Shown: piece after piece, positions 25,700 through 62,013 of the stretch
Layout of the letters: each line of letters starts with the position of its first letter
Numbering within the stretch: the stretch's first letter is position 1
Source of the DNA: Pocillopora verrucosa
Taxonomy: Eukaryota; Cnidaria; Anthozoa; Scleractinia; Pocilloporidae
DNA length: 64,000 nt
Assembly (NCBI RefSeq): GCF_036669915.1
Contig: NC_089324.1
Span: 1,509,174-1,573,173 of the forward strand
Direction of reading: 5' to 3'
Position numbers and translations under genes: made by a program
Notes under the pieces: generated by a model
What the model saw: the letters and a program-made list of their open reading frames with translations, nothing else
Told to the model about the DNA's origin: nothing
Databases searched by the model: none

Positions 25700-28247
25700 T
25701 CACAACCTTCGCAGATATGCAAACGAGCCTGATCCGCTTGACCGCCCGTCAGGGTTCCCAGGTTCAGCCTCTTCGTCCTCTACCTCCCCCCTGGGTCCGT
25801 TCCCTGAGGTATCTGTAGCCTCGTCATCCAATACTTCGCTTCCTGATCCGCCGTTGTCGTTACAAGTATATGCGCAGCATGATAGGAAAACACTGGAATG
25901 GTGCACGTTCTTGCAACCACGATCGGTGTCATCATCGCATTTGACATAACGGAAACAACCATACTTTCGTGAACACTTCGGCGTAGGTTCCGAACATATT
26001 TTGGACATTGTGTAGAAATCCCTGGCCCCAGGACATAACTTTATGCCGTTTAAAGGTTCACTTCGTCGTCGAATTCGACGTCCTCGTTCTGTAAAATTAA
26101 AGTATTTCGTGAAAGAGATTAATTAAAGAGCTTAGGCGAACGGCAAATAAGGTTAAGAATTCCTCTTCGGTTGTCCATCTTTTACCTCTTTGCACAATAA
26201 TATGTACTTGATATATTGTATTTGTTGTGCATGGAAGATTTACGGCTTGGAGTCTATTTGATGATTAGAAGAACTGATAAAGAGATATCTCATTAATTTT
26301 TATCCTTTTGGGTTTCAAGTAAAAATGGTTCCAAATCTCTGTTAGATATTAATAAATTTTATGAAAAATTTGTTTCCAACGCGTACGTGTCGCGGATCAG
26401 TACTTAACGGTTGGTACAAAGTAAAGCCAGATTGGACGGATGAGGCTAATGTTAAGTTTAGATTATAGACGAGATGGATAAGGGAACGCTGCAATTTACG
26501 GGAACGAAAAAGTGCTAGGGGCTGAACGAGAGGGGCACGTTGAAAAGGACGCAACCGTCTCTTACTTCCATCTAGAACGTGGGGGCATCCTCACTTTCAG
26601 TCTCGTTGTTTTGCTTGGTTATCAAACGACCCCATACAACAATTTTCTTACCCTTCGTTCTCATTTCCGTCACCTTCATGGATTCCTGCATTTCTTTCAC
26701 CTTGTACATCTTATACTTAGCGCAAAAACTCTCTGCCTCTTCACCGAGAGCTGAGCGATCAGTTACCTCCCCGTCAAGAATCCACGTGCTGTCTTTCCGG
26801 CTGGTCTCTGTAATAATCGTCTGATGGTAGAATAGAAGAAAAACGAATGTGTGCGAAACTGGAGATAAATTATGGACTGCGCTGGATCCTCCGTTGCTTC
26901 GTAATAACATCATAATACTTTTTTTCGCTCGATGAAATTTTTTTTAACGACGTAGTTCAAAACAAGGAATGGAATAAGCCTTTCTTTCATCCTACTTGTG
27001 CGTAGAAAGAAAAATTTTCACGTTACCAAAAAGTAATCTGACCTTCTTTGCCCTCTTTAGATCTCTCACTAGCTTCTTTGGCCGCGACTGCTGTTTAACG
27101 AGAGGAAGCAGGTAACAAATCTTGGTTTCCGGGAATCGTAGCAGGGTTAAACTCTGAAAATATATACAAATTGTGAAAGTTAAATTCATCGTCGGTCTGT
27201 ATGGGTTACATTCTGCGGAGGGACTGGTGACGAGGATGAATTGGATTCCCTTCCTTCTTAGCGCGCCTTTTTTATGTTTCCTTCCCTTGTTGTGAGTGTA
27301 GAGGAGTATAAAATAATATCTACGCTGATATACTCGTGACTATTGCGCAAAGAATACTCTATTGTGTTAGAAGTCACCGAATATTCTTGTAGGTGTTTTG
27401 TGACTACTGCTCCATCGATTTTGGAAGCCATGACCCAGGCCCGCCCGAGTTTGAGTTCTGATCTTACGTAAAAGTGAACTGCAAAATATGACAGATAGGT
27501 AACGAAATTATTCACAATTATGAGAGATAACTTAGGGCCGTTTATTATTTTTTGATGGGGGTGGGGGATTTCAAATTTACCTGATCCCGCAGTCTATTTG
27601 GTATAGTCTATAGTCTTGACTTAAAACTCTGTCAGAAACGACCGATCCCTACTCCTTTCCCCCTAAAAATCATGTGATCCCTTCCCCCCCTAAAAGAAAT
27701 CCTTTAAAAGCCCTCCCCGTGAGGTGGTAAATAACGCCTGACTGGTCCCTAAACACTTCGAGTTTGAGTTCTGATCCTACGCACAAACAACTGTTGATAT
27801 TCACTTGGCATTAATCAATTGTAAAAATATAACAGAAAGGTGAGGAAATTATTAAAAATTATGAGAGATAACTTACATGTTTGAAATCGTGTAACACATC
27901 ACTGCGATCCACACCAGGATGAGCAGGAACTTGAAACATTTCTGTTTGCTTCTTTTCGTCCACTTCGATCCTCTCTTTGTATTCTTTTCCAGCCTCGATG
28001 ACATCAACCGTAAATTCGACGACCTTGAGAAGTAAATCAGTTGATAGCAAACAGTAATGGATTATTATAGAGCTAAGTCGGAATATTTTTCGAAAAACGC
28101 TTTGAAAGCAAGCAAGATGGAGAGATATACGCTTTTAAAACTTACCTGTTTACGAGAGAAGTAAAAATTCCCGTAGCTTTTGCGAACAGGGTTACCGAAG
28201 GTCGCGCTCATCAGCAAAGCCAAGATGAGGAAACCGAACATTGCCAT
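25700..28247 (-). CDS. P1: BRICHOS-domain secreted precursor with nine-cysteine C-terminal peptide
   Basis: Exons in transcript order: 28146-28247, 27877-28023, 27043-27153, 26652-26820, 25700-26088; 918 bp, 305 residues, all joins in frame (phases 0, 0, 0, 1). Seen: signal peptide (1 to about 18) ending SATFG; a linker; a BRICHOS domain with the family's Asp (D80 in VLHDF) and cysteine pair (C96, C153); a polybasic site RGRRIRRR at 178-185. The terminal region has cysteines 195, 208, 215, 221, 227, 235, 247, 248 and 252, then a 53-residue acidic tail. BRICHOS domains act as intramolecular chaperones for an attached peptide that is cut free. I infer release of the Cys-rich peptide by a furin-like protease. 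The exon 3 donor is a weaker GTCAGA. The C5-C6 loop is the shortest of the array (7 residues). Confidence 0.8.
27437..27873. repeat. Partial duplication inside a P1 intron, separated by a MITE-like element
   Basis: GAGTTTGAGTTCTGATCTTA (about 27450) and ATTATGAGAGATAACTTA (about 27517) recur near 27763 and 27856, next to the exon 2 donor. Between them, 27536-27740 is an element with G-rich and C-rich arms ending CTGACTGGTCCCTAAA, related to 39650-39930. Confidence 0.55.
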
Positions 28248-29077
28248 TTTCTCAGAGTGAGGGGCGGGCGGAAGAATTCCCTGACGAGTGAAAAAGCGGT
28301 ACAAGACAGGAGATTGAGAGGAGATTTTAAGCCTGAGCGAAGCGTGATACAATTGATTGAGTCAAGGAAAGACGATCACTAACTTAAGACTGACTATAAA
28401 AGAGCATTTGTTTACTTTAATATATGAATACGGAGATTGGTGGTGAAATGTAAACGGAACTTCCACTTCAAGACAAGGAAAAATAAAACTTCGTAAACCA
28501 ATTTTTGTTTTCGTGCTAGAAATCACAGCATGTACCAGAAGGTCAAAATTTTGAGCCGTGGGAAAAAATTTTAGTGTAAGAAGTCTAACTTCTGTGAAAA
28601 TAATATCTTCTTTCTAACGCACTTCCCACAAGCCAGATGGATTTCTTTCGTGAAGGATTTCTAAGATAAGAGATGTTGGTCAGGAATACAGGCTAAGAAA
28701 TTCCTCGAGACTAAAACCTTGTTCAGGTCCCATTTCAGCTATTTGAAATTGAACTTGTTGAGAGCCGTTATTTGGTGTTACTAACATCATTTTAAATAAC
28801 AGCACTCAGAATGCAACGGAAAGGAGTCTAAGCTCTCGTTTTATTTCCTTGGGCTCCAGCATACCTCCACTTTAACAAATAGATTAGCTGATGAGATTTA
28901 AATCATCATGTTGTTTAATGTTAGTCCTTACCTCAAAAAGCGGCCAGAATGAGCAAAAAATAAATGAATAGATTGATAAGCCAAGCGAATTCAAGCAAGG
29001 AAATTTGCAATTAAGTTTATTCCGTGACGAAAAGGAAGGCAAATTTTGTCACTCAGATACAATAGTTAAAAACTTAC

Positions 29078-29182: not shown

Positions 29183-29213
29183 TTGCTACGTATAAGTACA
29201 AGCTGTATTTATA

Positions 29214-31366: not shown

Positions 31367-33921
31367 TCAAAGACGGCCCAACAACACTTCTAAGAGTGAT
31401 TCTGTGTTTTCCTCTGTTTCTACGGTTGGTGTTGTTGGTCTGTCAATCTTCTCACAAATGTATTCGCAACATTTAATTCGTCTGGTGTCGTGTACATTCC
31501 AACAGCGTGGACGTTCGACTTTTTTCTGTTTTTTTCTTTGTGCGGGTGGAGCATAAGGCGGATAGTACCGTTGCAAGCGATGATGACCGTAACGACCGTA
31601 ACGACCGTAATGACCAAGAAAACCGAAGAATCCCGCCCACGAACGCCGTTCGCGTTTCTTCGCCTCGCGACATTTCTCAATCTGGGTACACATTAAGGTT
31701 TCTCTGCATTTCATTTTGGACTTGGAACATACTTGAAGGGAGGTATTCAGGTCCATTCCCCCGCGGCACAGTTTTGTATCATTCAAAGCACTCACAGACT
31801 GACGTTTTACCCTATCTGGCGATGTTCCGCCTGAAGGAGAAGAAGAAGAAGAAAAATACGTATTTGACATAGAAGATATAATCTGTCAAGTTAACCCATC
31901 ATTATTTATGCGAAATTACCTTTTCAATTTTCAATTGATTGTCGAAGATATTCAAAATGGTGAGACATAACATTGTTTTGTTTATGTTTTTGTTTGTTTG
32001 GTTTTTTTTATTGACTTGTTGGAGTAACTTGAAAATAAGTTTTAGCACTTTTCAAGCCTTTAATTAAGGTTTCTTTGAAAAAAAAAACATTCTTGTGCGC
32101 TTTAGAATTAGGGAACCAGGACTGACTTATTTCTGGGAATATTATAAACCTTTAAACCCCAAGATCTCATGGGTAATTCTCTTTCCTGTGTACCATAAAA
32201 TTCTTTTGATGTTAGTTTGGAGAATTTGATATTGGATCAACTAATTCCCTGATTGATATTTTTCTTGATTCTCATTACTTGTCTACTTGATATTGTTTTT
32301 GATTTTGTAAAGAGAAATTCCGTCTTGATCACTTATGGGAGATTAAAGGTTTAAGACTCATTGATGTCTCACTTTCAGTTTGTTCTTCGGTATCGTGTTC
32401 CCGTTCCTCAGTCACGTGGTATATCGTGTACTGAGCGCAAAAGTCGTTCACCTCTTCACCAAGCCATGATCGATCAGCAACTTCTCCATCCAAAACCCAC
32501 CTGCTGTACACGCGTCTTGTCTCTGTAATATTCATCTGATTGAATAAATTGACAACGATTCACTTAGACGTAAATTGATAAATATTTTACTACGAAACGG
32601 TATATTTCATTTTCTATTTCAAATCAATGCGCAGAATGCATGGATTCTCGGCCAGCCTGTGTCTCTGATGTAGACGGAGCTACATTGTCTTGTCTCATAA
32701 GATGCATGTTACCTGTTATTCACCTTCCAAAAAATGTCGCTTATTTCTGAGCCCGCGGGCTAAGGAACCAGTCCTCATTTATCACTTAGGGGAGAGTGTG
32801 AGGGGAAGAGGGAACGGAGTGAGGATCAGTCGTCTTTTAAGGGACAAGGGAGAAATCTTGGAAAGAAAAGGGATCGAGCGCTTAATTCTGAGATCTTCAG
32901 GGCCAATTTTTGCGCCTAAGTGATGAGGGAAATTCTTGATAAGTTTTTTTCCTATTTGGAAAATGACGTGTTCTTTCTCACCTTCTGGGCCGTCATGTGA
33001 TCTCTCATTAGCTTCTCTGGCCTCGACTGCCGTTTTACGAGAGGAAACAGGTAACAGATCTTGCTTTCCGGAAAGCGTAACATTGTCAAATCCTAACAGA
33101 ATAAACAGAAATGATAACCACAGAAAAATGAGTGAAAGAAATAAGGAAGAGGATTGATGGTTGGAAAATGGTGGAGGAGTGTGATTCAGGTTTGGAAAAC
33201 AACATACGTGTTAGGGCTGAAACAAAAAATGTCATGATTGATGGAAATATGAGACAAAAACGTAATATTGTGGAAGAATGTGACCTTCACGTAATTGTAT
33301 TTTCTTGAAGTTATTTCGACTCAATCGCTCAACCTCCATCAATCTGTGAGAGACCACATGTGCCATGTTCGAACAAAGCGTCATGCTACAGTAATTTTAT
33401 TTCTAACTGCGACTTCGCTATTTTACTTGTGCCAACTATGACTTCCTTTCTGCGTCGATCATTTGCGCTATGAATCTGCAAATGACTTCTTTAAAAAAGC
33501 TCCCCCTTTTTATGTGATAAAGTGAAGATTAGATATCAATACGTAAGTGGGATTACTTACGTTTTTGAAATCATGTAGCACATCACTGCGATCCACACCA
33601 GGATGAGTAGGTACTTGAAACAATTCCGTTTGTTTTTCAAGGTCCACCTCGATCTTTTCAGTGTAGCCAGTTCCACCCTCGCTGATGTCGATATCAAAAT
33701 CCACGACCTTTTTGGATTAAAATAGCAATTCAGTCTTGCAAGTCTTTGAAATTACTGGGTGAAACGACAGAGTTGACAGCTAAGAATTCGGTTAAAGGTT
33801 TAACAATTAACTCATCTCAAAAACGTACTTGTTTCTTCATCCGTCGTCCATCATTAGTAGGGCTAGCAGATGATAAACTTAGGATAACGAGTACGATCAG
33901 GAAAGAAAATAAACACGCCAT
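31367..33921 (-). CDS. P2: BRICHOS precursor with long Gly/Tyr/Arg loop in the Cys-rich peptide
   Basis: Exons in transcript order: 33829-33921, 33561-33707, 32982-33092, 32373-32535, 31367-31830; 978 bp, 325 residues, frame continuous. Seen: signal peptide (1 to about 20) ending LSSAS; BRICHOS Asp77 and cysteines 93 and 150; furin-type site RVKR at 178-181 directly before QSVSALNDTKLC. Cysteines of the C-terminal peptide are 193, 206, 213, 219, 225, 281, 292, 293 and 297. The loop between the fifth and sixth is 55 residues, strongly basic and rich in Gly, Tyr and Arg (GHYGRYGRYGHH), with a Pro/Tyr stretch and RKKQKK. That composition recalls cationic antimicrobial peptides, but activity is only a hypothesis. 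Closest to P3 and P5; all three carry a family A MITE fragment just after exon 4. Confidence 0.83.
32151..32356. repeat. Family A MITE in the P2 exon 4-5 intron
   Basis: Reverse orientation on the plus strand, from AAACCCCAAGATCTCATGGG to CACTTATGGGAGATTAAAGG. The equivalent MITE position is kept in P3 (40336) and P5 (52357), so the insertion predates their split. Confidence 0.7.
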
Positions 33922-38342: not shown

Positions 38343-41021
38343 ATGGCGTATCTGTTTTCATTCCTGATCGTATTTGTTGTCCTAGGTTTGTCATCTGCTA
38401 GCCCTACTAATATTGAGCGACGAATGAAGAAACAAGTACGTTATCGATCAAACTTTCCTGTTGCACGCTTAATTAAATTCTCAGCCGTCCGGCTCGTGTT
38501 GTCCCCCAATCATTCAAAAGATTTCACAACTGTCACAGACTAAAGTGTAATTTTGATCCAACAAGGTCGTGGATTTTAATCTCGACATCATCGAGGGTGG
38601 AATTGGCTACACTGAGAAAATCGAGGTGGATCTTGAAAAACAAACAGAATTGTTTCAAGTTCCTACTCATCCTGGTGTGGATCGCAGCGATGTGTTGCAC
38701 GATTTCAAAAACGTAAGTTATCCTGCCTATTTATCAATGTAAAACCCTTTACCTTATCAGAAAAGTAAAGATTTGATAGAGTATCCATTGGCACAATTAC
38801 AGCGCAAACAATATAAAGGAACTCATACTTAACATAATTCCAATGGTGACGCAGTTAGACATCAATTTACTAAAGTCTCGCCTTTTTCCAGCCTCCCACG
38901 CACTCGGTTCTTTCAGAGAAGTATTATACTTCGTAACAATTAATTTTGTCTTATACTTCTAGTAATCATAATATTTTCTCGTTTCATCCCTAGCACTTTG
39001 TTGTTTTCCAAACTTGTCTCTCATTCCTCTATTGAGTTTTCCAGCAAACCAGCAATCATTAATTCGTCATTCTTAATTCTTTCACATTTTTTTCACAGTG
39101 ACCTCTTCTTGTTTGTCTCCGCAGAATTTGACCATGCTGCGCTTCCCGAAAAGCAAGATCTGTTACCTGTTTCCTCTCGTAAAACGTCAATCGAGGCCAG
39201 AGAAGCTGATAAGAGACCATAAGAGGGCTCAGAAGGTGTGTAAAAACATGATATCCTCCAACTGATGGATAGGTAAATACTTATCAGCGAAACAAGATTG
39301 CGCTGATCACTTGGGAGCAAAAATAGGCCTTGAAGATCTGAGTTGTAAGCGCGAGAACTCTTCTCTTTCAAATATTTCTCCCTTGTTCTTAAACTCCTCA
39401 TTCAAAACTTGCTGACGCGTAGATAACATTATTTCCTCAGAAATCAAAATATAATACGAGTGTTAAATATTCCTCTTGACACTTAAAAAGGGAAGTGTTT
39501 AAATTTAAAGGAGTATGGGCTGTAGAATTTTGGGGGTATCACACGGTTTTCAGAGGGTAGGAAATATAAAAAATTTATAGGGGTAAGCTTAGGTTAATTT
39601 TGCTCCTCGAATGCCTTTTCACTTGTGACATGAGATTAGGGTGACATAAGATAAGGGCCCACTGATTATTTATCGCCGAAGGGGGAAGGGGGTTCGGAGG
39701 ATTTTGGTCGTGTCAAAATTAAGTCTACCCGATCCCCCCCTGAGGTTCTGTAGTATTCTAACGAACATCCTTCATTGGCAGTCAATATTCTACCGTCCCC
39801 CCCCCCCCTTTAAACTCTGTATGAGACGACTGGCCCTCCTCTGTTTCCAATGAAAATCGTTTGATCCCCCCATAGATCCCCCCCCCCCCCCAACACACAC
39901 ACACACCCAGTCTATAAATAATGACTGGTTCCTTAGTCCGTGGGCTCAGAAATACGCGTCAATTTTGGAAGGTGAATAACATGCATCTTCTGAGGCAAGA
40001 TGATTTAGCTCCGTCTTCACCAGAAATGAAGACCAGCCGAGAATCCATGCATTCTGCGCATTGACTTGAAACAGAAAATGAAATGTACTGTTTTGTAGTG
40101 TAATATTTATCAATTTACGTCTAAGTGAATCGTTGTCTATGTATTCGATCAGATGAATATTACAGAGACAAGACGCGTGTACAGCAGGTGGGTTTTGGAT
40201 GGAGAAGTTACTGATCGGTCATGGCTTGGTGAAGAGCTGAACGACTTTTGCGCTCAGTACACGATATACCACGTGACTGAGGAACGGGAACACGATACCG
40301 AAGAACAAACTGAAAGTGAGACATCAATGAGTCTTAAACCTTTAATCTCCCATAAGTGATCAAGACGGAATTTCTCTTTACAAAATCAAAAAACATTATC
40401 AAGCAAACCAGTAATGAGAATAAAGAAAAATATCAATCAGGCCTGTTAGAAATTTTTACGCAATAATTTAAGGCATTTGTCGAACCCCTTTTAACGATAG
40501 TCAACTGTAAATATTACTGCATAGACAGTGATGGGTCAACCTGACAGATCACAGCATCTTTATGCTTACCTACCCCTCCCCAAAACCCAAATTAACCCTA
40601 TCACGCTGTCAGTTGACTGTTACTGGGTTAGGGAAGGGGTAGACGGGCAGTTGATCAGATCCTGATCCTGGTCGTATGCTTTTTTTCCTCAGGCGGAACA
40701 TCGCCAAATAGGGTGAGACGTCAGTCTAAGAGTGGTCTGAATGATACGAAACTGTGCCCAGGAGGATTGGACTTGAATAGCGCCCTACAAGTATGTTCCG
40801 AGCCCAAAAAAGAATGCGACCAAACCCTCATGTGTTTCGAGATTTCCAGATGCCACGACTTTTGGAGACGCCGGCGTTCGTTGCCATTTTGGTTCTCATA
40901 CGGCGGCTGCTGGAATGATCACGACACTAGAAATATTGTCGAATGTTGCAGTTACGTTTGTAATGATATTGATGAACCAACCACAGGAACGGTGGAAAAC
41001 ATAGGCTCAGAAGTTTTGTAG
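38343..41021 (+). CDS. P3: BRICHOS precursor with nine-cysteine peptide
   Basis: Exons: 38343-38435, 38566-38712, 39125-39235, 40153-40315, 40693-41021; 843 bp, 280 residues, frame continuous. Signal peptide 1 to about 20 ending LSSAS, BRICHOS Asp77, cysteines 93 and 150, furin-type site RVRR (178-181), then cysteines 193, 206, 213, 219, 225, 244, 256, 257 and 261. The C5-C6 loop (18 residues) has WRRRRSLPFWFSYGG, basic and aromatic. Exons 2 and 3 are 147 and 111 bp, exactly as in every complete member. Divergent partner of P2, with which it shares most of the BRICHOS sequence. Exons 4 and 5 were copied to form P5. Secretion and proteolytic release of the peptide are inferred from the layout. 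Confidence 0.85.
39650..39930. mobile_element. MITE-like element with G/C-homopolymer arms in a P3 intron
   Basis: ACTGATTATTTAT near the left end is mirrored by ATAAATAATGACTGG at the right; long C-runs and an (AC)n tract lie inside. Related to 27536-27740. Confidence 0.55.
40336..40442. repeat. Truncated family A MITE in the P3 exon 4-5 intron
   Basis: AACCTTTAATCTCCCATAAG to AAAAATATCAATCAGG; the right half is missing. Confidence 0.6.
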
Positions 41022-41661: not shown

Positions 41662-41674
41662 TTACTTTATTTCG

Positions 41675-43150: not shown

Positions 43151-43151
43151 A

Positions 43152-44610: not shown

Positions 44611-45758
44611 AAACTTGGTTGACAATATAATGTATAGCCAATTAAGAATGTCTCCTACTTCCTTTTCCTTGTTTGCTCCTTCCACCTTTGTAGTTTCACA
44701 GTGTACGTGTTCATTTGTGCGAGCTGCTCGTTATTACTTCCTTGTGTTTGCTCTCGGGTAACATGAATGTTTCCGCCTAGGATTCCTCCGTCATTTGTGA
44801 CAAAATCAGTAAAGATTGATCGTAACTTTCCTTAAGGTTTCCAATCGACCTTCTGCATCCTGAAATAAGATACTTTACCCTGAAGCACCTTCAGTTAAAT
44901 TATAAGTCCACTGTTTGAATAAGTTAGGGAAGCTACTTAATTCAAAAATAGAAGAGGAACCAGTTTTAAACTTCATGTTATCATAAGAAGGCGTACTGCG
45001 CTATTCAACGATAAGGCTTTTGGCCTTCAGTACGAAGCCTCAAAACACCAAATTAGATACACTTAACACAGAACTCTTAATACCTACGAGCACCTATTTC
45101 CTCTCGGAAGTTGGGCACTGAAGCTTTGCAGAAAGTTTCTTCAAGCAGCTAGGACGAGACAAAATGTTCGTTAAGAGGGATTTCTTGATACTTGAGCCGA
45201 TTGTGCAGTTAGACGAGGGAACACTTTAAAAGTTTCAGGAACTTGTGGTTTATATTTAGAATGGTAGAAAATAGTTTCATGATTTAAGACACCTTTTCAA
45301 GTGCCAAGTGAGGAAGATGATTACTCCATGCAGAACGGTCTCCTGCAGTGCATGATTGTTTTAGCGCCATGAGCAAAGTAACAATCCCGTTCTGCTGAAA
45401 CTATTGATATGATAATATACAAGAACTCGAAGCTAGTAAAGATTGCTGCCTAAATAATTGAATTTGAAAAACAGTTTGTGGACGTCTAGGTGAGAGGAAG
45501 ACTTCATACTTGAGTAAAGAAAAGAAAAAAGCCGTATCATGGAAATAAATACGTGCGAGCCTGTCAAAGGTAAGTAAACAAGGCAGGCTTTCAAAATTGC
45601 ATACGTCCTATTTTGCAATTAATTTTTTTAAGTCAAAAGACCTCATGCTGAGAATTTTAATTATCTCCCTGGCTGTTTCAGTCATGCTATGGTGGACTGC
45701 ATTCCCGGTTCAACTGAAAGTATAGATAATGTACGTGAGCTCTATGCCAAGGAGTCGC

Positions 45759-45766: not shown

Positions 45767-46559
45767 AACGCAGCTATGATACAGCTAGCAGTTTGCAGAC
45801 GTTTCAAACGACAAGAAGAATTCACTCTGATCACGAGAAAGAGAGCCTAGCTTATCAAAGGAAACATTTCTCTTCGACCATGTTAAATGTAGGTAGACGC
45901 ACATGTTTATTTTGACTTTGGTTGCACAACGCTCACTTAAAAAGTGAACTATTGCAAGTTTGATACACAGTCTTACCTTTTTCTGTAACGGACTCGAGAA
46001 CAAGAAAATATATCTTTCCTCACTGGGTTGCCCTTTTTATTTTGGATAGAAAATGAAGACAACTTCCCTTCAAGTGGTGCTAGTACTTTTGGTCTTGATT
46101 TTTTGCCAATTTCTACTTCGGGAAATCCCGCTCGGGAGAGGCTGAAAGGCAAAAAGAGGGTGAGTATGCAATTAAAAAAGAAATGCCATTGCAAATTTTG
46201 AAAAGCGTACGTTTCGAGCGTTAGCTCGTTATTCTAAGTCACAGCAAGTTTGAATAGCATGCAGCTATTTTGACCGCCGCAGTGGACGCAGATTTTGGTG
46301 CAGTTTGTTATAAAATCTTCAAGTTCATCACCGAGCATTGATCAAAGTCAGTCCTCTAAAGCGAAATCAGGAAATGACTTGACACATTATTGAACCCATG
46401 AGTCTTGAATAACAATTTAAAATATTGATAATCGCAAAGTACATTCTTCATAATGACATTCTAAAAATGTCAAAACTTTGTTTTATTCGAGCGCTTATTT
46501 TTGGATGTAAATAAGAAGTGAACATCATTTATCATCCATCCTTTAAATGGTCTCTTTAA

Positions 46560-46767
46560 CCATTTAACCCCTAAGAGTGACTTGCATCTAATTTCTCCTT
46601 ACAGTGTGACCACTGAATCAAACATTGATGTCATGAGAATAAAGGAAATGATCACCAACTGAAGAAACTCTTGATTGTTAGATAAATTCTCCTTGTCAGC
46701 ACCTTAGTAATTGTACAGATAACAGTATAGAGTATATGAATACTGATGTTAGGGTGTAACGGGTTAA
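46560..46767. repeat. MITE-like element, family B, in P4 intron 2
   Basis: AACCCCTAAGAGTGACTTGC to TGATGTTAGGGTGTAACGGG. Absent from the corresponding P6 intron, so it inserted after the duplication or was lost there. Confidence 0.65.
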
Positions 46768-46953
46768 AGGATCAAGTATAGTTCAAATCAAATCCAGAAA
46801 TGTTTTCAGTTGAGGGTTTGCTTCAGAATTTTCAACGAGCCTTATCCCGTCCGTCGCAGATGAGAGCTAGCATCTCATCAAAAGTGTCTCTTTTTGATTA
46901 GAAAACAAAGGGTATATATATTTCATGCATATTTTAAAATTGCAACGTTTTTG

Positions 46954-47126
46954 CATATATATATATATAAATGTATATATATATTGATGATCGCGTAGTA
47001 AACGTGAAACTCAGAGTCACAGTTATGCCTTATTGATTAGTTCAATCTTCAGATATATATATATACACATATATATATATATATATATACACATATATAT
47101 ATATATACATACATACATATATACAA

Positions 47127-47170
<44 letters not shown>

Positions 47171-47175
47171 GTGCA
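46954..47175. repeat. (TA)n-rich microsatellite tracts
   Basis: Long runs of TATATATA with interspersed CA/CG steps in P4 intron 2. P6 has a much shorter version at about 59290-59325. Confidence 0.9.
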
Positions 47176-49333
47176 ATGCTGATGGTAAGGGGGAGGTGTA
47201 AGCACTAAGATACCCCAAATGATCCCACAATTGTGGTACCATTTAGGCCATGCCAGAGGTCTCGAACTAGATAAGCTAGTGAGGATGCACAATGGTAAGA
47301 CATGATTCTTCCTAGATAGAGTGCTAAATTTGGACATGAAAGCAAAGGTTTGTGATGCCAAAGAGCTATATATATATTCATATATAAATACATATATACA
47401 CGTAGAAAAAGACATCGATTGTACTTAACGAAACGTGCCATGCATGATATAACTTTCCAACATTTTAATGATAATTATACACTTACAGGTCGTGGACTAC
47501 AATGTTTACATAAGCGAGTCAGGAGAGAAGTACACTGAGAGAATTGAGGTGAATCGAGATAAGAACACGGAATTGTTCCAAGTTCCCGCCCATCCTGGTG
47601 TTGATCGTTCTGATATCCTACATGATTTCATCCAAGTGAGTTTTAGTGTAGACGAATTCTCACTCAACATTCATTATTACTGTAAAGCCTCGACTCTTTC
47701 TCCCTTTTAAACATAAATTTAACACCACTCATGCAAAATCCAGAAGCTGCTCAATTCTTTCTAACCTCACTGTTAACAGCCCAAGGTCGCACTCACGTAT
47801 TTTTGTCCGGGTGAACTCCTGTATCGACTTCCATCCTCGCTACTTGTTTTTATTAACTACAATCTGTTCAGTAATTGTAAATCTTTCCACTTTTCCATTT
47901 TTTATTTTTTACTGTGAAATGATGCGAGGTTGCCTAAAAAAGCGATATTTAGCCATTGCATAATTAAGTATTTGATATAATTTTCCTTATTGCTCTTTAT
48001 TCATCGTCCCAGAATTTGACGATGCTGCGAATCCCAGACCAGAATACCTGCTATCTGTTTCCTCTCATGAAGGAGCAGACGACCCCTGAAAAGTTGATCA
48101 GGGATCTCGACAAAGCCAGCGGGGTGAGAGCAATTGATACTTTTACAATAAATAGTATTGTGATTTCATTGTTTTATTTATTTATTTATTTTTATTTTTA
48201 TTTTTTTGCTAACTTTGAATAATACCGGTGAAATTTATCCCTGAAAACTCCCTTAATAGCTAAACTACACTTCAAGATGACAGGCCGGGCAAGGGCGCGA
48301 ATTATTTCCCTGATAAGCGATTTGGTCGACTTAGTTGATAATCAACTAGAACTTGATAGTGGCAGAAAAACCATTATAACAAATACTACTATGGTTGTAT
48401 ACTTTCCGATGTTTTGAGCGTTGGCCGAGGTCAATCGAAGGATTATGGATTATTTGTGCGCGTGTCTAAATGCCAGAATATGCAGTTAGGTTGCTGGGGT
48501 AAGCTTGGGAAAGGATGATAATGGATGTATAGCAAATCAGTGAGGTGTATTCTCTTATTCCAAGAAAAGCCAAATTTTCTATTATGGAAGTAAATTATTT
48601 TTGAAGTTTTACGATTCCCCAGCGTTCTGATTTATACCTTAGTTTGGTGAAGGAAAGTCTACAAACAAGTGCGTTTTGAAACAACCATCACAAGCTTGGG
48701 ACTGAGATTTCTTTGTTACCAGTGAGAAAGAACATAAAGAGAAAAAACTAAAAGGGATCGGTGTACTTTGTGAAGTCCTTACATACTTCGCCCTCTTCGT
48801 TTACTATCACTCAAATTCTAAAACGATTTAACAAAATATTGAATCCTTAGCTCTGACAGATGGTTGTGACAGAGACCAAGCGGGTTGATAGCACTTGGAT
48901 TCTTGACGGCCAGTTAACAGACCGGTCCACACTCAGCGAGGAGTTGGCGCAATTTTGTGCAAAATACTCCATATACCATGTGAAAAAGATCCAAGATTCG
49001 TTAAGTGTGGCAAAAGGTAAGACAACGAAACTATCAAGTCACATTTCGTCAAGAAAACTTCGCACAGCCTAGCGTAGTCACAAGTCATTCACGCATACAC
49101 GCCTACACGAAGGCACTGATCTCTTGCGTGCGCGTTGTATTCTTGCCTACCCTCTGTAGCCTGAGTTCCACATCCAATCAGCAACGTCCGTCAATTAATA
49201 GTCCAAAATATTCAGTGCCTTTAGAAAGTCTAATAAGTAATTTTGCTATTTTTTTTAACTTTGCAAAATCAAATTACAAATTACAGTATCAGTTGATAGA
49301 TGATTTGATGTTCCTATATTTGTGCTGTAGCAG

Positions 49334-49423
49334 AAAGCCATACAATCGAGGAGGCGGTGTAATAACATAAACAAACTGTGTCCAGACGCTGCCTTAAATG
49401 CCTGTATTTCGCCTAACTTTTAG
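49334..49423 (+). pseudogene. Decayed duplicate of the P4 terminal exon
   Basis: After a CAG acceptor, AAAGCCATACAATC matches the start of the true exon (49770), and a shifted frame reads NKLCPDAALNACISP before a stop, echoing LCPGGMDLGTAFSTC. The surrounding intron is also repeated (about 49080-49480 versus 49500-49850), so this came from a local tandem duplication. The same relic is in P6. Confidence 0.65.
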
Positions 49424-50293
49424 ATAGCTTGCGTAGCAAGAGCTTGATTTGAATTTGGACACGAGTAAGTTAAAAATAAATCCGTCTGGGTGAGCTGGAA
49501 GTCACGCACACACCACACGCACGTACGCTCGCACAGACACACTGCTCTCTTGCACGTGTGTTAATTGCATCCTTACTGAGCGCCTTCAATTGATTAAATC
49601 TCACATCCAATAAACAACGGCTGTCTATACCATTTCAGAATGTCCAGTTCTTTCAGAAAGTCTACGTTGTTTTGCTATTGTCTCTGACTTTGTTAAGTCA
49701 AATTATTAAGTGCAAAATCACTTAGGTAACGATTTAATGTTCCTCTCTCTGTTGCTGTTGCTGTTGCAGAAAGCCATACCATCCGAAGGAGGAGCTCGAC
49801 TAATATGGAAAGACTTTGTCCCGGCGGCATGGATCTAGGTACTGCCTTCAGTACCTGTTCTAAACCTAAAATGAAGTGCAGAATTGAAACACAAACATGC
49901 TACAAGTATGTGATTTGCAGTGAAGTTGGCAAAAATGGTAATTGGCCCATCGTAACTGATCAAATGATGTCAGCTAAGACTTCCCTAAGCACTGATTGTC
50001 GTAGAGAGCACATCTGGAATGCAATCGTGTGTTGTGAATACACTTGCACGTTTAACTAAATAAATAAATTACCTTCAGCTATCTAACTAGTAACCATTTC
50101 CTACTAATTAGTCTCAGAACATTTGAACGTTCACTTGTATGTTTGACGTCATGGTCACATGGCTACGTTAGATGACAGACAAAGTACTTTTTCTTTAAAC
50201 AATACTACAATTATTAGGGCGATGCGTATCTTGAACGGTTTGTATCAACAAACGGTCCTTTTTCTCGTTTTTATGTAAGCGATACTTGATAGA

Positions 50294-50299
50294 AATAAA
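50294..50299 (+). terminator. Candidate polyadenylation signal of P4
   Basis: AATAAA in the context GATAGAAATAAACTATAGAA, conserved at P6 (62273-62278). Earlier AATAAA copies overlap the stop codon. Confidence 0.4.
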
Positions 50300-52172: not shown

Positions 52173-53242
52173 ATGAATATTACAGAGACGAGGCGCGTGT
52201 ACAGCATGTGGGTTTTGGATGGAAAAGCTACCGATCGATCATGGCTCGGTGAAGAGGTGAACGACTTTTGCGCTCAGTACATGATATACCACGTGACTAA
52301 GGAACGCGAACAGATGGCCGAAGAACATATAAATATAAAGATATAAATGAGTCTTTAACACTTAAACTCCCATGAGTGATCGAGACGGAATTTCTCCTTA
52401 CAAAATCATAAACAATATCAAGCAGACGAGGGATGAGAATCAAGAAAAATATCAATCAGGTCTGTTAGAAATTTTTACGCAATAATTCAAGGAATTTGTC
52501 AAACCCTTTTTATGAAGTACAAATAAAAACACAAATTAAGTGTTTCCTTTTCCAAAAAAATAATTGAAAGCTTGGAAAGTTATGGAACTGACAAACAACT
52601 AAGCTAAAATTGCCTTGCAAGTTACTCCATCTAGTTAAATCACGAAAAGCGCCGTTCCTAATTTCTTTCGACAGTCAATTGTAAATTAAAAACATTATTT
52701 TGCATAGACAGTGATGGATCAACTTGACAGATCATAGCATCTTTATCAAATATGTATTTATTGATCAGCGTCAGTATCCTAGCAACTGGGTCCTACCTAT
52801 CCTCAAACCCAAATTAACCTTAATATGCTGTCAGTTGACTGTTACTGGGTTAGGGAAGGGGTAGGTGCGCCGTTGATCAGATACTGATTCTGGTCGTATT
52901 TTTTTTTCCTCAGGCGGAACATCGCCAAATAGGGGGAGACGTCAGTCTGGGAGTGGTCTGAATGATACGAAACTGTGCCGCGGGGGAATGGACCTGAAAA
53001 GCGCCCTGCAAGTATGTCCCGAGCCCAAAATGAAATGCGACGAAACCCTCATGTGTTTCGAGATTGCCAGATGCGACGACTTTTGGAGACGCCGGCGTTC
53101 GTCGCCATTTTGGCTCTCAAACAGCGGCTGCTGGAATTATCACGACACTAGAAATATTGTCGAATGTTGCAAATACGTTTGTGATAATACTGAAGAACCA
53201 ACCACAGGAACGGTGGAAAACATAGGCTCAGAAGTTTTGTAG
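52173..53242 (+). pseudogene. P5: headless BRICHOS fragment, exons 4 and 5 only
   Basis: Exon 4 begins at 52173 with ATGAATATTACAGAGACG and keeps NDFCAQY, but the donor present in P3 (AAA|GTGAGAC) is changed to AAAGATATAA and the frame runs into a stop at 52344-52346. Exon 5 (52914-53242) is fully open after a good acceptor: RGRRQSGSGLNDTKLC, nine cysteines, an 18-residue C5-C6 loop and the same C-terminus as P3 (TGTVENIGSEVL). Signal-peptide exon and exons 2-3 are missing because the duplication began inside the P3 intron. Exon 5 could still serve as an alternative terminal exon for P4, whose exon 4 ends in the matching phase. Confidence 0.75.
52357..52465. repeat. Truncated family A MITE next to P5 exon 4
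   Basis: Copy of the one at 40336-40442. Confidence 0.6.
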
Positions 53243-55261
53243 AGGCATCTTTAAATATTTGGCCAATTTAGCTTTCTAGAGATACAGAACAAAACAAGCG
53301 ATGCTATTATTTCAAATATCTGGCCTCAATTGATTAAAAAATACCTAGTTTCTTCACTGTTTTTCCATCTTCTTTCCACCATAGTCTCTCTACCTTTGGA
53401 TGGCCCGCACCTTACTGTGATATCCCAAAGATGTTAATTATACCCCCTAACCTCCGTTCCACCTCCACCCTTTCAGAGAGGGCTTCCTCTGTCTGCCCGG
53501 CAAGTCTCCGATTTTGGGCAGTAGTGTCCGATTTTAGACACTTGTGATCGATTTTAGCCACAGTTTCCGATTTTAGGTCCTAGCGTCTGATTTTAGACAC
53601 GTTCTTAAATTCTCAGACATTTCTCTTCTTCTTCATAAATTTCCTGAAGAATGGCTCATTTTTGACATCCACTCACATCCTCTGAGCCAAGAATTTTGCC
53701 AAGAAAAGTCTCTTTTATTATTTTCGTAAATAATGAAACCTCCAGGTCGGTTTACTTTATTTCGGTCAGTGATTGGTCAACTCTCAACCAATCAGAATAC
53801 AAAACTGAAACCAATCATCCCTTGGTCACCCGCGTTTTCCCGCCTTAAATGCAGTTTGCTTGTTTCCCTTTGACCTCTCATTGGCTCTTTGGGATTTCAT
53901 TTTGGTCTTGGCTTTGGTTTTGCGACACTCAATCGAAAAGCGTCCTTGACCATTGATCTGAAATTCATCGGATATAATATGGCACACGAACAGTGGCATA
54001 TCTGCATACTAAAAGTAATTATTTTTAAAGGTTATTTTCACCCTTGATGCAACGCGCGTTGCGACCTAATTTCCTGTAACGCGAAATTCTCAGTTAGGTT
54101 ACTGAAAACCTTCTAAAATCGTCTTTCTCAAGAGCCATCCTGGACATACAGTCAATTATTTTACGGTAAATAAATTCGCCGTTCGTCATTTTATAGTTAT
54201 CTTGCAGCATTGTGAATTTTGTTAGGTAGAATCCGAAGAAAATATTTTTCAAGTGTCACGCTTGGATCTCTACGTACTGTATGTACAGGGTCGGCGGAAA
54301 GGACAACATTCGAATTTTTTCACTTTGTAGAGGCGCTTGAGGATCCTAAATAAAGATAAAAAATTTTCCAATTTGGTATTTTTCAAAGAGAAATATGGAG
54401 TTATTTGAGGACCGTGTCCGGCCGTGTCAGTGAAACGTTTCTAAGTGTCACGCGCTTGGATGGCTACACGGTTAGCGAAAAACATCAAGTTCGAAATTTT
54501 TGGCTGCCTGGAAGTGCTTGAGGATTGTAAATAAAAGTAGAAAGTTTTCGTATAAATATTTTATAGATTTCGAAGAGAAATACGGAAAAATATCAGACTG
54601 CCAGACGTTTAGTTATTTTAAGACCGTGTTCGGCGTCAGTGACACTAACAGCTTGCGTTACAATTCTTATTTGCTGCCTTGCATGGACAACAACCTCGAC
54701 CACTCTTTCGAGCACAAGCTCCTCTCTACGGGCAGGAAACTTCAACTGACCCTTGGTCCTATATAACAAGGATGGCAAACTTCAATGAAAAAAATTGATG
54801 TATGAATGAAAACGTGGTGGATCAACATTTTCACCTTCCTCGGAATGCTCGCAAGGATTTTCGTGTTCCTCTTCCACAACAACAGACCCGTGAGCGTTTA
54901 GTGCCTCGGATTCTACTAAATTAATGGATCCATCTGATTCCATACCGGATTAAAACGTATAGTATTCTTTTCAATAGAATTATTTTGACAAGCTCACCAA
55001 ACTCATCGGAGAAAACGCAGAAGCTATTTTGAGACAACGTGACTTGGTTAAAATAACCTACCAATCAGAGGCGCTATTTAAACAAAAGCGGTGGTTCAAA
55101 ACAAAAACAAACGACTACGTTGCATCAAGGTTGGAAATAGGCCTTTAAGCCGGGAATTGTTGCACGATGTAAGCGAGGAAGTTAACTCATTACGAAAGCT
55201 CAGAAATGCAGGTTAACCACCGCAGTGAATTTTGAAAAGCTGATACTTCGCAGAAGCTGAA

Positions 55262-56720
55262 ATAAGTAAGTAAGTAAGTAGATAAACTCTTTATTTAAAG
55301 AGGGTAGCACTTAATAGCCAAAAGGCAATTAAACATGCGGCCTTAATGCAATACATATGATAGTACTAATACAAATATAGATATCAATTACTAAAATTAA
55401 ATACATTATTATAGAAATAGAAGAACAGTTAAACAAAATAAAAATCTTATGATAAAATTTTAAATAAAGTAGATCTCAGGACTAAATGACAGAGTCAGGA
55501 AACTGTAAAATAGCCTGCAGTGCACGCGTCTAATTAATGCAAGCTAACGTTATAAGCTCGCGATCGTTTATCCGACCGGCCATGTTTGATTTGGAGGTCA
55601 AGTGGACGGTGAGGGTAGGGGGCGGGGAAAGGGCGAAAAAATCTTCACTACCCTACCCCCATTCTTCTCCTTAGTTTTGACCGTTGGCCACCCCCTTTGG
55701 TACAAATCTATTTCTCTCTCCAGCCTTCCGCTGCCATTAAATTCAAAGATGGCGGCCATAATTTTCGTTAAGAAATAACTGAGCATCCGTTCGCCAAAAT
55801 TACGCCTGCCCTGTGGGCTAACGATAAAAAGAAACCAAATAAACTACAAGATGGTTCAAACTCTGTTGGTTTCCGAGAAAAATTGCCTTAAGGCCTTTTT
55901 AAAATTTTGTACTGATGTCTTTTGTCGTAAGGTGGTAGGTAAACTGTTCCATAGTTGACGAGTGATAACATTGAAAGTTTTACCGCCATCTGATTTTACG
56001 TTTAAACTTTGAGCATACTAAGTTATAGTTTGTATACCTTGTGTTACGAGAGTGAAGATCACCATTACGTGTTAAAAGGCGAGTGATATACGCAGTTAAT
56101 TCTCCCCGTAGTCTCTTAAATGCAATTAGAAATTTGGAAATTTTAACATCCTCGTAAAAAGGTAACCAGCTTAGATCATGAAATAATCTGACATAAGAGG
56201 CCTTAGAATCAGCGTCCATAATAAGTCTAGCTGCACGTTTCTGTAATTTCAGCACTTTAGCTAAAAGGTCATTTTCACAATTGGTCGGCCAAACAACGGC
56301 TACATAATTCAGTACAGATCGTATCATGCTCTAATAATATAAATATTGTTGCTTCATCGGAATTTATACTCTAATTTGTCTTAAAATGCCAACGCGTTGA
56401 GAAAGTTTTTACAAACATTTTCAACATGAGAAGAGAAAGACGGTTCGCTATCAAGTTCTAAACCGAGCAATTTGGTATTTGGGACATAATTATGTGAATT
56501 CATGCTATTAAGTAACATGTTTTTGTCCATCTTCGAGCTGAGACGTTTCTCAGTAACAATCAACGTTTTCGTCTTGTCTGTGTTAAGTGATAGCTTACTG
56601 GCATTGGCCTATTTGGTGACCTCAGATAACGTGATGCGTGATGCCCTTTCTTGGAGAAAATTGACTCACTGCACGATTTACAGTTATAGTGGAGCCAAGA
56701 CAGGAATTCAGAACTCATAT
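55262..56720 (-). mobile_element. Non-LTR retrotransposon 3' end (copy 2)
   Basis: Minus-strand frame 55980-56327 reads VLNYVAVVWPTNCENDLLAK, LKLQKRAARLIMD and LFHDLSWLPF, the conserved C-terminal RT region of CR1/Jockey-type LINEs. A second frame at 56381-56563 has TKLLGLELDSEPSFSSHV. The tail abuts (GTAA)n at 55264-55280. No intact RT core. Confidence 0.75.
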
Positions 56721-58300
56721 ACAGCCAGATAAATTGGTTTCATAAACTTGGTTGACAATATAATGTATAGCCAGTTGAGAATGTCTCCTACTTCCTTTTC
56801 CCTGTTCACGTCCCCTACCTTTGTAGTTTCACAGTGTACGTGTTCATCTGTGCGAGCTGCTCGTTACTATTTCCTTGTTTGTTCCTTACTTTTGTAATTT
56901 CACAGTGTACGTGTTCATTTGTGTGACCTGCTCGTTGTTACTTCCTTGTGTTTGCTCTTGGGTAACACGAATGTTTCCGCCTAGGATTACTCCACCATTT
57001 GCGACAACATCAATAAAGATTAATCGTAACCTTCTATAGGGTTTCTAATCGACCTCCTGCATCCTTAATGTTTCCGCTTAGGATTCCTCCACCATTTGCG
57101 ACAAAATCAGTAAAGATTGATCGTAACGTTCCTTAAGGTTTCTAATCGACCTCCTTCATTCTTAAATAAGATCACTTTACCCTGAAGCACCTTCAGTTAA
57201 ATTATAAGTCCACTGTTTGCATAAGTTTGGGAAGCTTCTTAATTAAAGAGGAGGAACCAACTTTAAAATTCATGTTATCATAAAAAGGCGTGCTGCGCTA
57301 TTAAACGATAAGGCTTTTGGCCTTCAGTACAAAGTCTCAAAATAAATAAATAAATAAAGTAGATACACCAATCGCTAAATCCTAAAGCCTCCCGGAAGTT
57401 GAGCGCTGAAACGACTTTGCGGAGACGGTTTCCTCAGGCAGTTAGGACGTGACCAAATGTCCGAAAAGCAGTATATCACGGACACAACATGCCGGATACA
57501 ACAACTGTTACTTGATAGTCACGTCACGCAGTAAAAATAGGCTATCCCCAAGTGTCATAACACATTTTGGCTTAGCTAAGCCGTTCCTGTCGCTGAATCA
57601 TTCTGCAATTGTGAAAATTGTCATTCATGCTATGATTATGAGTTATTTCCAAAGAGAAAATTGTTCGAAAGAGTCCTAAATTTACGTAGCACTCGCTAAC
57701 GCGCAAGCCGCGCGGATCCTCGCGCCTGATTTCATTTCAATTGTCAACTTTCATTAACATCACGTTCGAAGCCAAACACCTTTCTTTCACTTGCTAATTG
57801 AGTCCTCTTGCTTTACATTGACAAGCCTATGGATATTTTACACTTCCCAGGCGAGAATTTTGTTCTTGGGCAAAGCTCGCTATGAAAGCTAAGAAATACA
57901 CTTAGACCACAGCAGTGAATTTTGAAAAGCTAGTATTTCGCGTGATGCTCTTTCTCGGAGAAAATTGACTCACTGCATGATTACAGTTACAGTGGAACCA
58001 AAAAAGGAATTTTTGAACTCATATACAGCCAGATAAATTGGTTTTATAAACTGGGTTGATAATATAATGCATAGCCAGTTGAGAATGTCTCCTACTTCCT
58101 TTTCCCTGTTCACGTCCCCTACCTTTGTAGTTTCACAGTGTACGTGTTCATCTGTGCGAGCTGCTCGTTACTACTTCCTTGTGTTTGCTTCCGGGTAACA
58201 CAAAAATTTCAGCTCGTGTGATTTGCGACATGTTTTTGTGAACAGTGTTCCCGGTTGTGCTGAAGCTGTTGATTACGCAAGTGGGCTCTATGCCAAGGAG
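56721..58300. other. P5-P6 spacer
   Basis: Corresponds to 44610-45750 with local rearrangements: the segment with TGACTCACTGCA and AACTCATATACAGCCAGATA occurs twice here (about 56660 and 57970), and TTTGTAGTTTCACAGTGTAC recurs at 56820 and 58125. No gene is supported. Confidence 0.4.
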
Positions 58301-58304
58301 TTGC

Positions 58305-58393: not shown

Positions 58394-61300
58394 ATGTTAA
58401 ATGTAAGTAGACGTGCATGCTTTTTTTGGCTTTGGTTGCACAACGCTGACTTAAAAAGTGAACTATTGCAAGTTTGATACCGCTCGATCCACAACTCTTA
58501 CCTCCCTCTGTGCCGATCTCGAGAACAAGAAGAATCTTCCCTCACTGTGTTTTCCCCTCTATTTTTGATAGAAAATTAAGGCGACCTCTCTTCAAGTGAC
58601 GTTAGTACTTTTGGCCTTGATTATCTTGCCAATTTCTACTTCGGGAAATCCCGCTTGGCAGAGACTGAGACCCGAAAAGAGGGTGAGTATGTAATTAAAA
58701 AAGAAACGCCATGGCAAATACTGAAAAGCTTACGTTTCGAGCGTTAGTTCGTTGTTCCGAGTCACAACAAATTCGAAAAGTATGTAGCTATTTCGACCGC
58801 CGAAGTAGACGCAGATTCTCGTGCAGTTCACTAAAAAATCTTCGAGTTCAACACGTGGCTTTTATCAGAGTCAGACATCCAAAGCGAAATCAGGAAATGA
58901 CTTGACACTTTATTGAACCGATGAGTCTTAAATAAAAATTTACTATAGTAATCATCGCAAAGTTCATTCTTCATAATAATATTCTAAAAATGTCAAAACA
59001 TTGTTTTATTCAGGCACATATGTTTGGGTGTAAATAAGAAGTGAACCTCATTTATCATCCATTCTCGAAATGGTCTCTTTAACGGATCAAGGAAAGTGCT
59101 AATCAAATCCAGAAATGTTTTCAGTTAAGGGTTTGCTTCAGAATTTTCAACGAGCCAAACGTCTGTCCGTCGCAGATGAGAGCTCTCATCTCATCAAAAG
59201 TGTTTCATTTTGATAAGAAAACAAAGGGTATATGCATTTCGTGTATATTTTCAAATTGCAACATTTTTGCACATAAATACATATTAAAGATATATATATG
59301 TATATATATATATGTGTGTGTATAGAAAAAGATATCGATTGCTTTGAACGAAACGTGCCATTCATGATATAGCTGTCAAAAATTTTAATGATAATTTTAC
59401 ACCTAAAGGTAGTGGACTACAATGTTCGCATAAGCGAGTCCGGAGAGAATTACACTCAGAAAATTGAAGTGAATCAAGTAAAGAATACCGCATTGTTCGA
59501 AGTTCCCGCCCATCCTGGTGTTGATCGTTCTGATGTCCTACATGATTTTAACCAAGTGAGTTTTAGCGTAGACGAATTCTTACTCAACTTTCATTATTAC
59601 TGTAAAGCCTCGACTCTTTTTACCTTTTTACACATAAATTTAGCATCACTCATGCAAAATCCAGAAGCTGCTCAATTCTTTCTAACCTCACTGTTAACAG
59701 ACAAGGGTCGCACTCACGTATTTTTGTCCGGGTGAACTCCTGTATCGACTTCCATCCTCGCTACTTGTTTTTACTAGCTACAAGCTCTTCAGTAATTGTA
59801 TATCTTTCCATTTTTCCATTTTTTATTTTTTTACTGTGAAATAATGCAACGTAGCTTAAAAAAGCGATATTTAGCCATTGCATAAGTATTTGATATCATT
59901 TTCCTTATATCTCTTTATTTATCGCACCAGAATTTGACGATGCTGCGAATCCCAGAAGAGAATACCTGCTATCTGTTTCCTCTCGTGAAGGAGCAGACGA
60001 CCCCTGAAAAGTTGATTAGGGATCTCGACAAAGCCAGCGGGGTGAGAGCAATTGATACTTTTACAATAAATCGTATCGTAATTTAATTGTTTCATTATTT
60101 GTCGTAATAATTTTGAATAATACCGGTGCAATTTATCCCGGAAAACCCCCTTCATGGCCAAACTACACTTCAGGATGACAGGCCGGGCAAGGGCGCGAGT
60201 TATTTTCATGATAAGCGATTTAGCTCGACATAGTTAATAATCAACTAGAACTTGATATGGGACAAATACTACTATGGCTGTATACTTTCCGATGCTTTGA
60301 GCGTTGATCCGGGTCAATCGAAGGATTGTGAATTACCTGTGCGTGTGTCTAAATACCAGAATATGCAGTTAGGTTATTGGGGTAAGCTTGGGAAAGGATG
60401 ATAGTAAATGTTTAGCAAATCAGTGGGGCGTGTTCTTTGTTCTTTTATTCTGACTTGAAATTCAAAGTTTCGATTATAAAAATAAATATTGTTTTTGAAA
60501 TTTTGCGATTCCCTAGCGTTCTGATTCATACCTTAATTTGGTGAAGGAAAGTCCCCAGAAAAATACGTTTTGAAACAACCATCATAAGCTTAGGACTGAG
60601 ATTTCTTTGCGACCAGTGAAAAAGAATGCGAAGAGAAAAACAAAAAGGGATCATGATTTAATTGCAAGTTTAACGCGAATGTAAAAATCATGGGCCTGAT
60701 TTTGAAACAGTGTACTTTGTGAAGTCCTGACACACTTCGCCCTCTTTGTATACTATCACACAAATTCGAAAACGATTTAACAAAATATTGAATCCTTAAC
60801 TCTATCAGATGGTTGTGACGGAGACCAAGCGGGTTGATAACACTTGGATTCTTGACGGCCAGCTAACAGACCGGTCCACACTCAGCGAGGAGTTGGCGCA
60901 ATTTTGTGCAAAATACTTCATATACCATGTGAAAAAAACCCACGATTCGTTAAGTGTAGCAAAAGGTAAGACAACAAAACTATCAAGTCAAATTTCGTCA
61001 AGAAAACTTCACATAGCCTAGCGTTGTCACGAGGTCATTTACGCACACACACCTGAACGGACGCACAGATCTCTCGCGTGCGCGTTATTTGTATTCTTGC
61101 CAACTCTCCGTAGCCTGAGTTCGACATCCAATCAGCAACGCTCGTCAATTAACAGCTCAAAATTGTCAGTTCTTTCAGAACGTCTAATAAAGTTGTTTTG
61201 CTATTTTTCTAACTCTGTAAAATCAAATTACAAATTATAGCATCGGTTGATAGATGATTAACTGTTCCTATTTCTGTGCTGTAGCAGAAAGCCATATAAT

Positions 61301-62013
61301 CGTGGAGGCGGAGTAGTAAACAAACTATGTCCAGATGCTGCCATAGATGCCTGTATTTCGCCTAAATTTTATATAGCCTGCGTAGCAAGAGTTTGATTTT
61401 AATTTGGACTCAAGGAATTAAAAAATAAATCCATCTGGGCGAGCTGGAAGTCACGCACACACCACACGCACTCACACCCGCACAGACACACCACTGCTCT
61501 CTTGCACGCGTGTCCATTGCATCCTTACCGAGCGTCTGCAACGTAGACTAAATCTCACATCCAATAAACAACGGCCGTCTCTAACAATTTAGAATGTCTA
61601 GTTCTTTCAGAAAGTCTACGTTGTTTTGCTATTGTCTCTGACTTTGTTAAATCAAATTATAAAATGCAGAATCACTTGGGTAACGATTTAATGTTCCTCT
61701 CTCTGTTGCTGTTGCTGTTGTAGAAAGCCATACAATCCAAAAGCGAAGGACCAGAAGAATAAACAGACTTTGTCCTGGCGGCATGGATCTAGATGATGCC
61801 TTCAACACCTGTTATGATATGCCTAAATTTAGGTGCAGAGTTCGAACAAGAACATGCTACAAGTATGTGATTTGTAGTAATATTGGCGAAGATAGACCGG
61901 ATAATTGGATCGACGTACGAGTCCCCAGGGCGGCTCCCCAAAGTTTAAATTGCCGTGAAGAGCACATCTGGAATGCAATCGTGTGTTGTGAATACACTTG
62001 CATGCATAAATAA
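58394..62013 (+). CDS. P6: BRICHOS precursor with nine-cysteine peptide
   Basis: Exons: 58394-58402, 58572-58682, 59409-59555, 59931-60041, 60809-60965, 61724-62013; 825 bp, 274 residues, frame continuous. The start exon holds only three codons (M-L-N). The signal peptide is completed in exon 2 (VTLVLLALIILPISTSG). BRICHOS Asp86, cysteines 102 and 159; polybasic KRRTRR at 185-190; then cysteines 195, 208, 216, 223, 229, 255, 266, 267 and 271, ending three residues after the last. Loop C5-C6 is 25 residues and differs strongly from P4, while flanking introns are nearly identical. The best candidate for a working gene of the P4/P6 type. Peptide release by furin-like cleavage is inferred. Confidence 0.85.
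61288..61396 (+). pseudogene. Decayed duplicate of the P6 terminal exon
   Basis: Starts AAAGCCATATAATC after a CAG acceptor. A frame offset from the splice phase reads VNKLCPDAAIDACISPKFYI, then ACVARV and a stop, matching the first third of the nine-cysteine peptide (compare LCPGGMDLDDAFNTC). Confidence 0.65.

Follow-up and report, generated by a model that had tools for sequence, protein, structure and literature searches.

The closest described counterparts of the genes reported here, an array of six BRICHOS gene copies at positions 25700-62013 of a 64,000-nucleotide stretch of the Pocillopora verrucosa genome (the window; 1509174-1573173 of contig C13 in a genome of 353 Mb), are the annelid BRICHOS-related antimicrobial peptides, OAF, chondromodulin-I with tenomodulin, and the BRICHOS genes already published for corals. 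The annelid group comprises arenicin, alvinellacin, nicomicin, capitellacin and AmBRI-44a; nicomicin has 33 residues (PMC6265681), AmBRI-44a appears in a listing as a defensin-like peptide containing four disulfides (PMC11767717), and in alvinellacin the chaperone is reported to diversify while the peptide does not (PMC5431198). OAF consists of a leader, a BRICHOS-type domain, a furin-type site and a 70-residue four-disulfide hairpin, and its mature part is highly conserved (48% from human to fly; PMC9714404). In chondromodulin-I, a BRICHOS domain and a furin site are combined with a terminal region of eight cysteines and four disulfides (PMC11173128). For corals, 238 BRICHOS sequences with a conserved cysteine pair were described from 15 species, and transcript levels up to 380-fold higher under heat plus low pH were reported, not mapped to the genes of the window (PMC5299404). 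Heat-induced Montipora BRICHOS genes showed fold changes of 5.94 and 5.40 (PMC8590396), and settling larvae of Pocillopora acuta were enriched in two BRICHOS proteins that were described as predicted antimicrobial peptides and likewise not mapped to the window genes (PMC12960093). Corals also make the six-cysteine peptides damicornin and AmAMP1 (PMC11767717), whose kinship with ShK toxins is given by a title in the reference list of that paper.

The copies in the window share a common plan consisting of a hydrophobic leader (judged by eye), a BRICHOS domain, a convertase-type site and a C-terminus with nine cysteines, hereafter called the cargo. The annelid precursors have the same order of leader, BRICHOS domain, basic site and C-terminal peptide, and OAF shares both the order of parts and a long multi-disulfide hairpin of the kind predicted below; chondromodulin-I and tenomodulin resemble the array genes in their BRICHOS domain, furin site and cysteine-rich end. 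We lean towards reading the array as a set of secreted precursors in which a conserved chaperone carries a disulfide hairpin that diversifies and probably serves in defence. P1 and P2 lie on the minus strand and P3 to P6 on the plus strand, with the following exon models.

25700..28247, minus strand: gene P1, complete, 305 amino acids, acidic-tailed cargo; exons 28247-28146, 28023-27877, 27153-27043, 26820-26652, 26088-25700
25850..26062, minus strand: P1 cargo including its nine cysteines, from the translation (the residues modelled alone with AlphaFold2)
31367..33921, minus strand: gene P2, complete, 325 amino acids; exons 33921-33829, 33707-33561, 33092-32982, 32535-32373, 31830-31367
38343..41021, plus strand: gene P3, complete, 280 amino acids; exons 38343-38435, 38566-38712, 39125-39235, 40153-40315, 40693-41021
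45880..50059, plus strand: gene P4, interrupted by a frameshift in its leader exon; exons 45880-45888 (5'), 46050-46159 (leader) and the open exons 47489-47635, 48013-48123, 48860-49016, 49770-50059
52173..53242, plus strand: P5 remnant, exons 4 and 5 only; exon 4 from 52173, exon 5 52914-53242
58394..62013, plus strand: gene P6, complete, 274 amino acids; exons 58394-58402, 58572-58682, 59409-59555, 59931-60041, 60809-60965, 61724-62013

These models bear out the initial annotation of the stretch, which had counted four complete genes, a frameshifted P4 and a fragment, P5. All modelled internal exon borders are AG/GT, and the intron phases 0,0,0,1 are common to the copies. The leader exon of P6 has no ATG by itself; the start is given by a three-codon 5' exon (58394-58402, donor GTAAGT), and the relative P0016 has the same start, MLNK. 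Exons 2-5 of P4 are open and P4 is called frameshifted in this assembly because its leader exon measures 110 nucleotides (nt) against 111 nt in the homologous exon of P6; the frameshift could also be an assembly error instead of a real lesion. In P5 the exon-4 donor is lost, as judged by eye from the sequence, and blastn gave no match adjoining the remnant for exons 1-3 of its relatives.

The BRICHOS domain, encoded by exons 2-4, was recognised by the Pfam profile PF04089 (curated cut-off 25 bits) at 42.1 bits in P1, 39.5 in P2, 38.3 in P3, 39.0 in P6 and 37.6 in exons 2-5 of P4, which confirms the domain proposed in the initial annotation. An alignment of 20 relatives contains two invariant domain cysteines (positions 94 and 151 of P0009), which are the conserved BRICHOS pair, and several invariant aspartates. 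The profile of these relatives matched the sequence of the human Bri2 BRICHOS structure with an expectation value (E) of 5.6e-6, and the same structure ranked first in a fold comparison (E 4.9e-3).

The cargo is defined by the spacing C-x12-C-x6/7-C-x5/6-C-x5-C-x(7-55)-C-x10/11-CC-x3-C, which we found exactly as first described in all six C-termini of the window. The cysteine core spans 58 residues in P1, 105 in P2, 69 in P3 and 77 in both P4 and P6; counted from the basic site as far as the stop codon, the C-terminus comprises about 84-144 residues. The pattern had not been recognised at the outset, and searches with the C-terminal region, against Pfam for 28 members and against the PDB by sequence and by fold, indeed found nothing significant. 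Two candidate identities were not borne out. No match to OAF_C was obtained in the 28 cargo sequences at E<=10, a search in which the HMMER filters drop most weak matches; comparison of the cargo profile with the coral's own OAF_C (hhalign) gave E 0.18 over 10 columns, and OAF itself is encoded elsewhere in this coral, by a gene on contig C6 whose exon matches OAF_C at 97.9 bits. The ShK family was matched by one of the 28 members, P1, below threshold (E 0.37, 11.8 bits against a cut-off of 20.9).

When the P1 cargo was modelled alone with AlphaFold2, a short helix followed by a long beta-hairpin was predicted (predicted local distance difference test score, pLDDT, 81.1; predicted template modelling score, pTM, 0.51). 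Helix and hairpin also appear in the full-precursor model of P0009, in which ten-residue blocks score 69-85 over residues 191-250. The loop between C5 and C6, of 7-55 residues in the window and 5-55 across the family, sits at the tip of the predicted hairpin. Joint loss of cysteines offers a guide to the disulfides. Among 52 C-termini, C3 and C8 are jointly present in 41 and jointly absent in 11, and since the two come and go together we infer that they probably form a bond. Ten of these 11 C-termini carry BRICHOS motifs of the type found on contig C8, which holds a second array; the other, P0031, has the window-type motif HPGVDRSD, so its loss of both cysteines looks separate. C1 and C7 are both missing solely in P0020, a weak hint of a C1-C7 bond, and C4 alone is missing solely in P0055, making C4 a candidate free cysteine. 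Because nine is an odd number, one cysteine may join two molecules.

Between the BRICHOS domain and the first cysteine, R-X-[KR]-R is present in 46 of 50 sequences, in agreement with the polybasic site that had been proposed there, and the remaining four, P4 included, carry other basic pairs. Of 38 nine-cysteine proteins, 11 have a second furin-type R-X-[KR]-R within the cargo, always in the tip loop (2.9 expected from shuffled loops); P2 has R-E-R-R in its 55-residue loop and P3 has R-R-R-R. Both sites are putative convertase sites, and their use is inferred from these motifs.

The cargo changes faster than the BRICHOS domain, positive selection not being proven. With shared cysteines excluded, it differs more than the BRICHOS domain in 21 of 24 chosen pairs (Fisher p<0.05). 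The ratio of nonsynonymous to synonymous substitution rates (dN/dS, with bootstrap 5-95% ranges in brackets) between the two intact genes P2 and P3 was 0.12 (0.06-0.26) for BRICHOS and 0.68 (0.42-1.23) for the cargo, and between P4 and P6, where the ranges overlap, 0.42 (0.23-0.82) and 0.81 (0.44-1.53). Close pairs from contig C8, with few substitutions each, pointed in the same direction, with BRICHOS and cargo values of 0.35 and 0.72 (g4-g5), 0.32 and 0.41 (g4-g8) and 0.32 and 1.20 (g5-g8); in g2-g3, where substitutions are also few, the cargo value was 1.19 and no silent BRICHOS change was present.

Protein searches for relatives returned 28 matches at E<=1 and 66 at E<=0.01. Those named to species are all stony corals (Pocillopora, Stylophora, Oculina, Desmophyllum, Acropora and Montipora), which agrees with the anthozoan source proposed from the sequence, and Oculina, Desmophyllum and Stylophora have the nine-cysteine pattern as well. 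Several relatives come from the source 'lgn', taken here to be assembled public reads, where they lie on short contigs with reading frames unbroken across exon junctions, and for this reason look like spliced transcripts. P1 has a near-identical relative of this kind in P0009 and P6 in P0016; the latter occupies a contig of 1,063 nt against the 3,620-nt genomic span of P6, and differs from P6 at 1 of 127 BRICHOS residues. Relatives of the array genes therefore appear to be expressed and spliced. None of the outcomes named in the initial annotation as refuting it came about: BRICHOS matches were obtained, there are spliced relatives, and the nine-cysteine region had no significant match to a known domain.

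Exon-2 matches on C13 amount to at least 5 copies, all within the window, to which the C13 matches of P3 and P0041 are also confined. The second array, on contig C8, has at least 11 exon-2 matches within 11.73-11.89 Mb, and weaker exon-2 matches occur on C12, C5 and C14. A motif scan of the contig C8 array found eight cargo exons, of which seven lack cysteines C3 and C8 and one has all nine. Two copies there, L036 (about 11838138-11839844) and L037 (about 11848018-11849721), have opposite orientation and identical protein sequence in the parts compared, and stem either from an inverted duplication of very recent date or from a copy doubled in the assembly.

The array probably belongs to the same broad family as the published coral BRICHOS genes. 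The accessible accounts of BRICHOS in corals and cnidarians in the open PMC literature present the domain as a chaperone of the stress response or as a predicted antimicrobial peptide; in them we found no description of the nine-cysteine cargo, its hairpin, its tip loop or its rate of change. The family is thus known in outline, and its cargo appears undescribed. The comparison with arenicin drawn in the initial annotation holds for the precursor plan; it does not extend to the peptide itself, with a core of 58-105 residues, nine cysteines and a net charge from -1 to +18. The annelid peptides with named sizes are short beside such cores. Going by description, chondromodulin-I and tenomodulin differ in being type II membrane precursors, confined to vertebrates, with eight cysteines (PMC11173128), and damicornin and AmAMP1 are, like the predicted cargo, secreted and cysteine-rich but have six cysteines rather than nine. 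The alvinellacin pattern is the reverse of the coral array, where the cargo diversifies and BRICHOS stays conserved. The array is in this respect a natural counter-example, and one can therefore ask what BRICHOS must recognise in its client.

According to the reading we favour, the leader would direct the precursor into the endoplasmic reticulum, where the BRICHOS domain would shield the hairpin-forming, disulfide-rich C-terminus and aid its folding. A furin-like protease would then cut at the basic site and release a hairpin with about four disulfides, whose leftover cysteine may join two molecules. The tip loop would be the main variable part, and in some copies cleavage at the extra convertase motif there would leave two chains held together by disulfides. 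Gene duplication would have diversified the cargo with the chaperone held constant, a pattern that fits effectors of host defence or agents shaping the microbiome. Cargo diversification and published stress induction favour a defence role, which is weakened by the low charge of several copies: the core carries +3 in P1, +18 in P2, -1 in P3, +2 in P4 and -1 in P6, so the peptides are not uniformly cationic, and across the family 25 of 47 cores reach +4 or more. If correct, this reading would give a molecular interpretation of a strongly stress-induced reef-coral gene family and a peptide scaffold to test. A bolder version, which we regard as doubtful, is a repertoire of chaperone-borne effectors in which a constant BRICHOS cassette carries a hypervariable nine-cysteine hairpin. 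A subset would have the tip loop recut as in insulin maturation to give two-chain products (P2 perhaps also freeing a Gly/Tyr-rich basic stretch), the odd cysteine would give covalent dimers, and the heat-induced coral 'BRICHOS chaperones' would largely be precursors of such peptides.

Several observations weigh against the reading of a delivered, diversifying defensive hairpin. The cores of P1, P3, P4 and P6 bear little net charge, and in the family as a whole 8 of 47 cores have a charge of 0 or less. The basic site of P4 does not fit the strict R-X-[KR]-R motif, and the full-precursor model of P0009 is weak overall (pLDDT 61.9, pTM 0.43). No excess of change in the cargo was seen in P1-P0009, P6-P0016 and P0022-P0026, the contig C8 pair g1-g5 is slightly reversed (BRICHOS 0.28, cargo 0.26), distant pairs on that contig are near saturation, and dN/dS above 1 was established in no test of window or contig C8 pairs. 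The low charge of several cores would suit a released peptide acting as a signalling or matrix factor rather than an antimicrobial, and both OAF, with its 70-residue four-disulfide hairpin behind the same order of parts (PMC9714404), and chondromodulin-I, with its BRICHOS domain, furin site and eight-cysteine end (PMC11173128), are precedents. The mature part of OAF is, however, highly conserved where the coral cargo changes fast, and the cargo has no OAF_C match; we judge such a role unlikely, although worth keeping in view.

That BRICHOS itself is the working product, a stress-induced chaperone with an accessory C-terminus, seems to us somewhat less probable than a signalling role. BRICHOS is the conserved part and coral BRICHOS genes are induced by heat (PMC5299404, PMC8590396), but an idle tail would not explain why different genera retain the nine cysteines and the basic site although the cargo is otherwise variable. 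The array genes are putatively secreted, disulfide-rich, tandemly duplicated and fast-changing. Venom peptides often combine these properties, and the sub-threshold ShK match of P1 points the same way; in the Pfam search of the cargo, however, no toxin family was matched significantly, and a venom-type peptide of stinging cells is the explanation to which we give least weight.

The window also contains repeats. P4 and P6 lie in two direct copies of a segment some 4.5 kb long (47368-51836 and 59290-63788, 80.8% identity). Another direct repeat, about 3.1 kb in length (41662-44745 and 53752-56878, 89.7% identical), which holds open frames resembling, by eye, pieces of retroelement reverse transcriptase, probably helped to duplicate the array. 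Gene conversion between P2 and P3 is suggested by their exon-4 blocks (32296-32711 and 39977-40392, inverted), whose likeness of 94% is well above the 74-87% of their other blocks. An inverted repeat of 120 nt, 83% alike, lies beyond the P1 stop codon (25478-25597) and in a P4 intron (46563-46682). Outside the array, open frames at 664-1137 and 3322-4781 resemble, again by eye, fragments of reverse transcriptase and of a GIY-YIG-type element.
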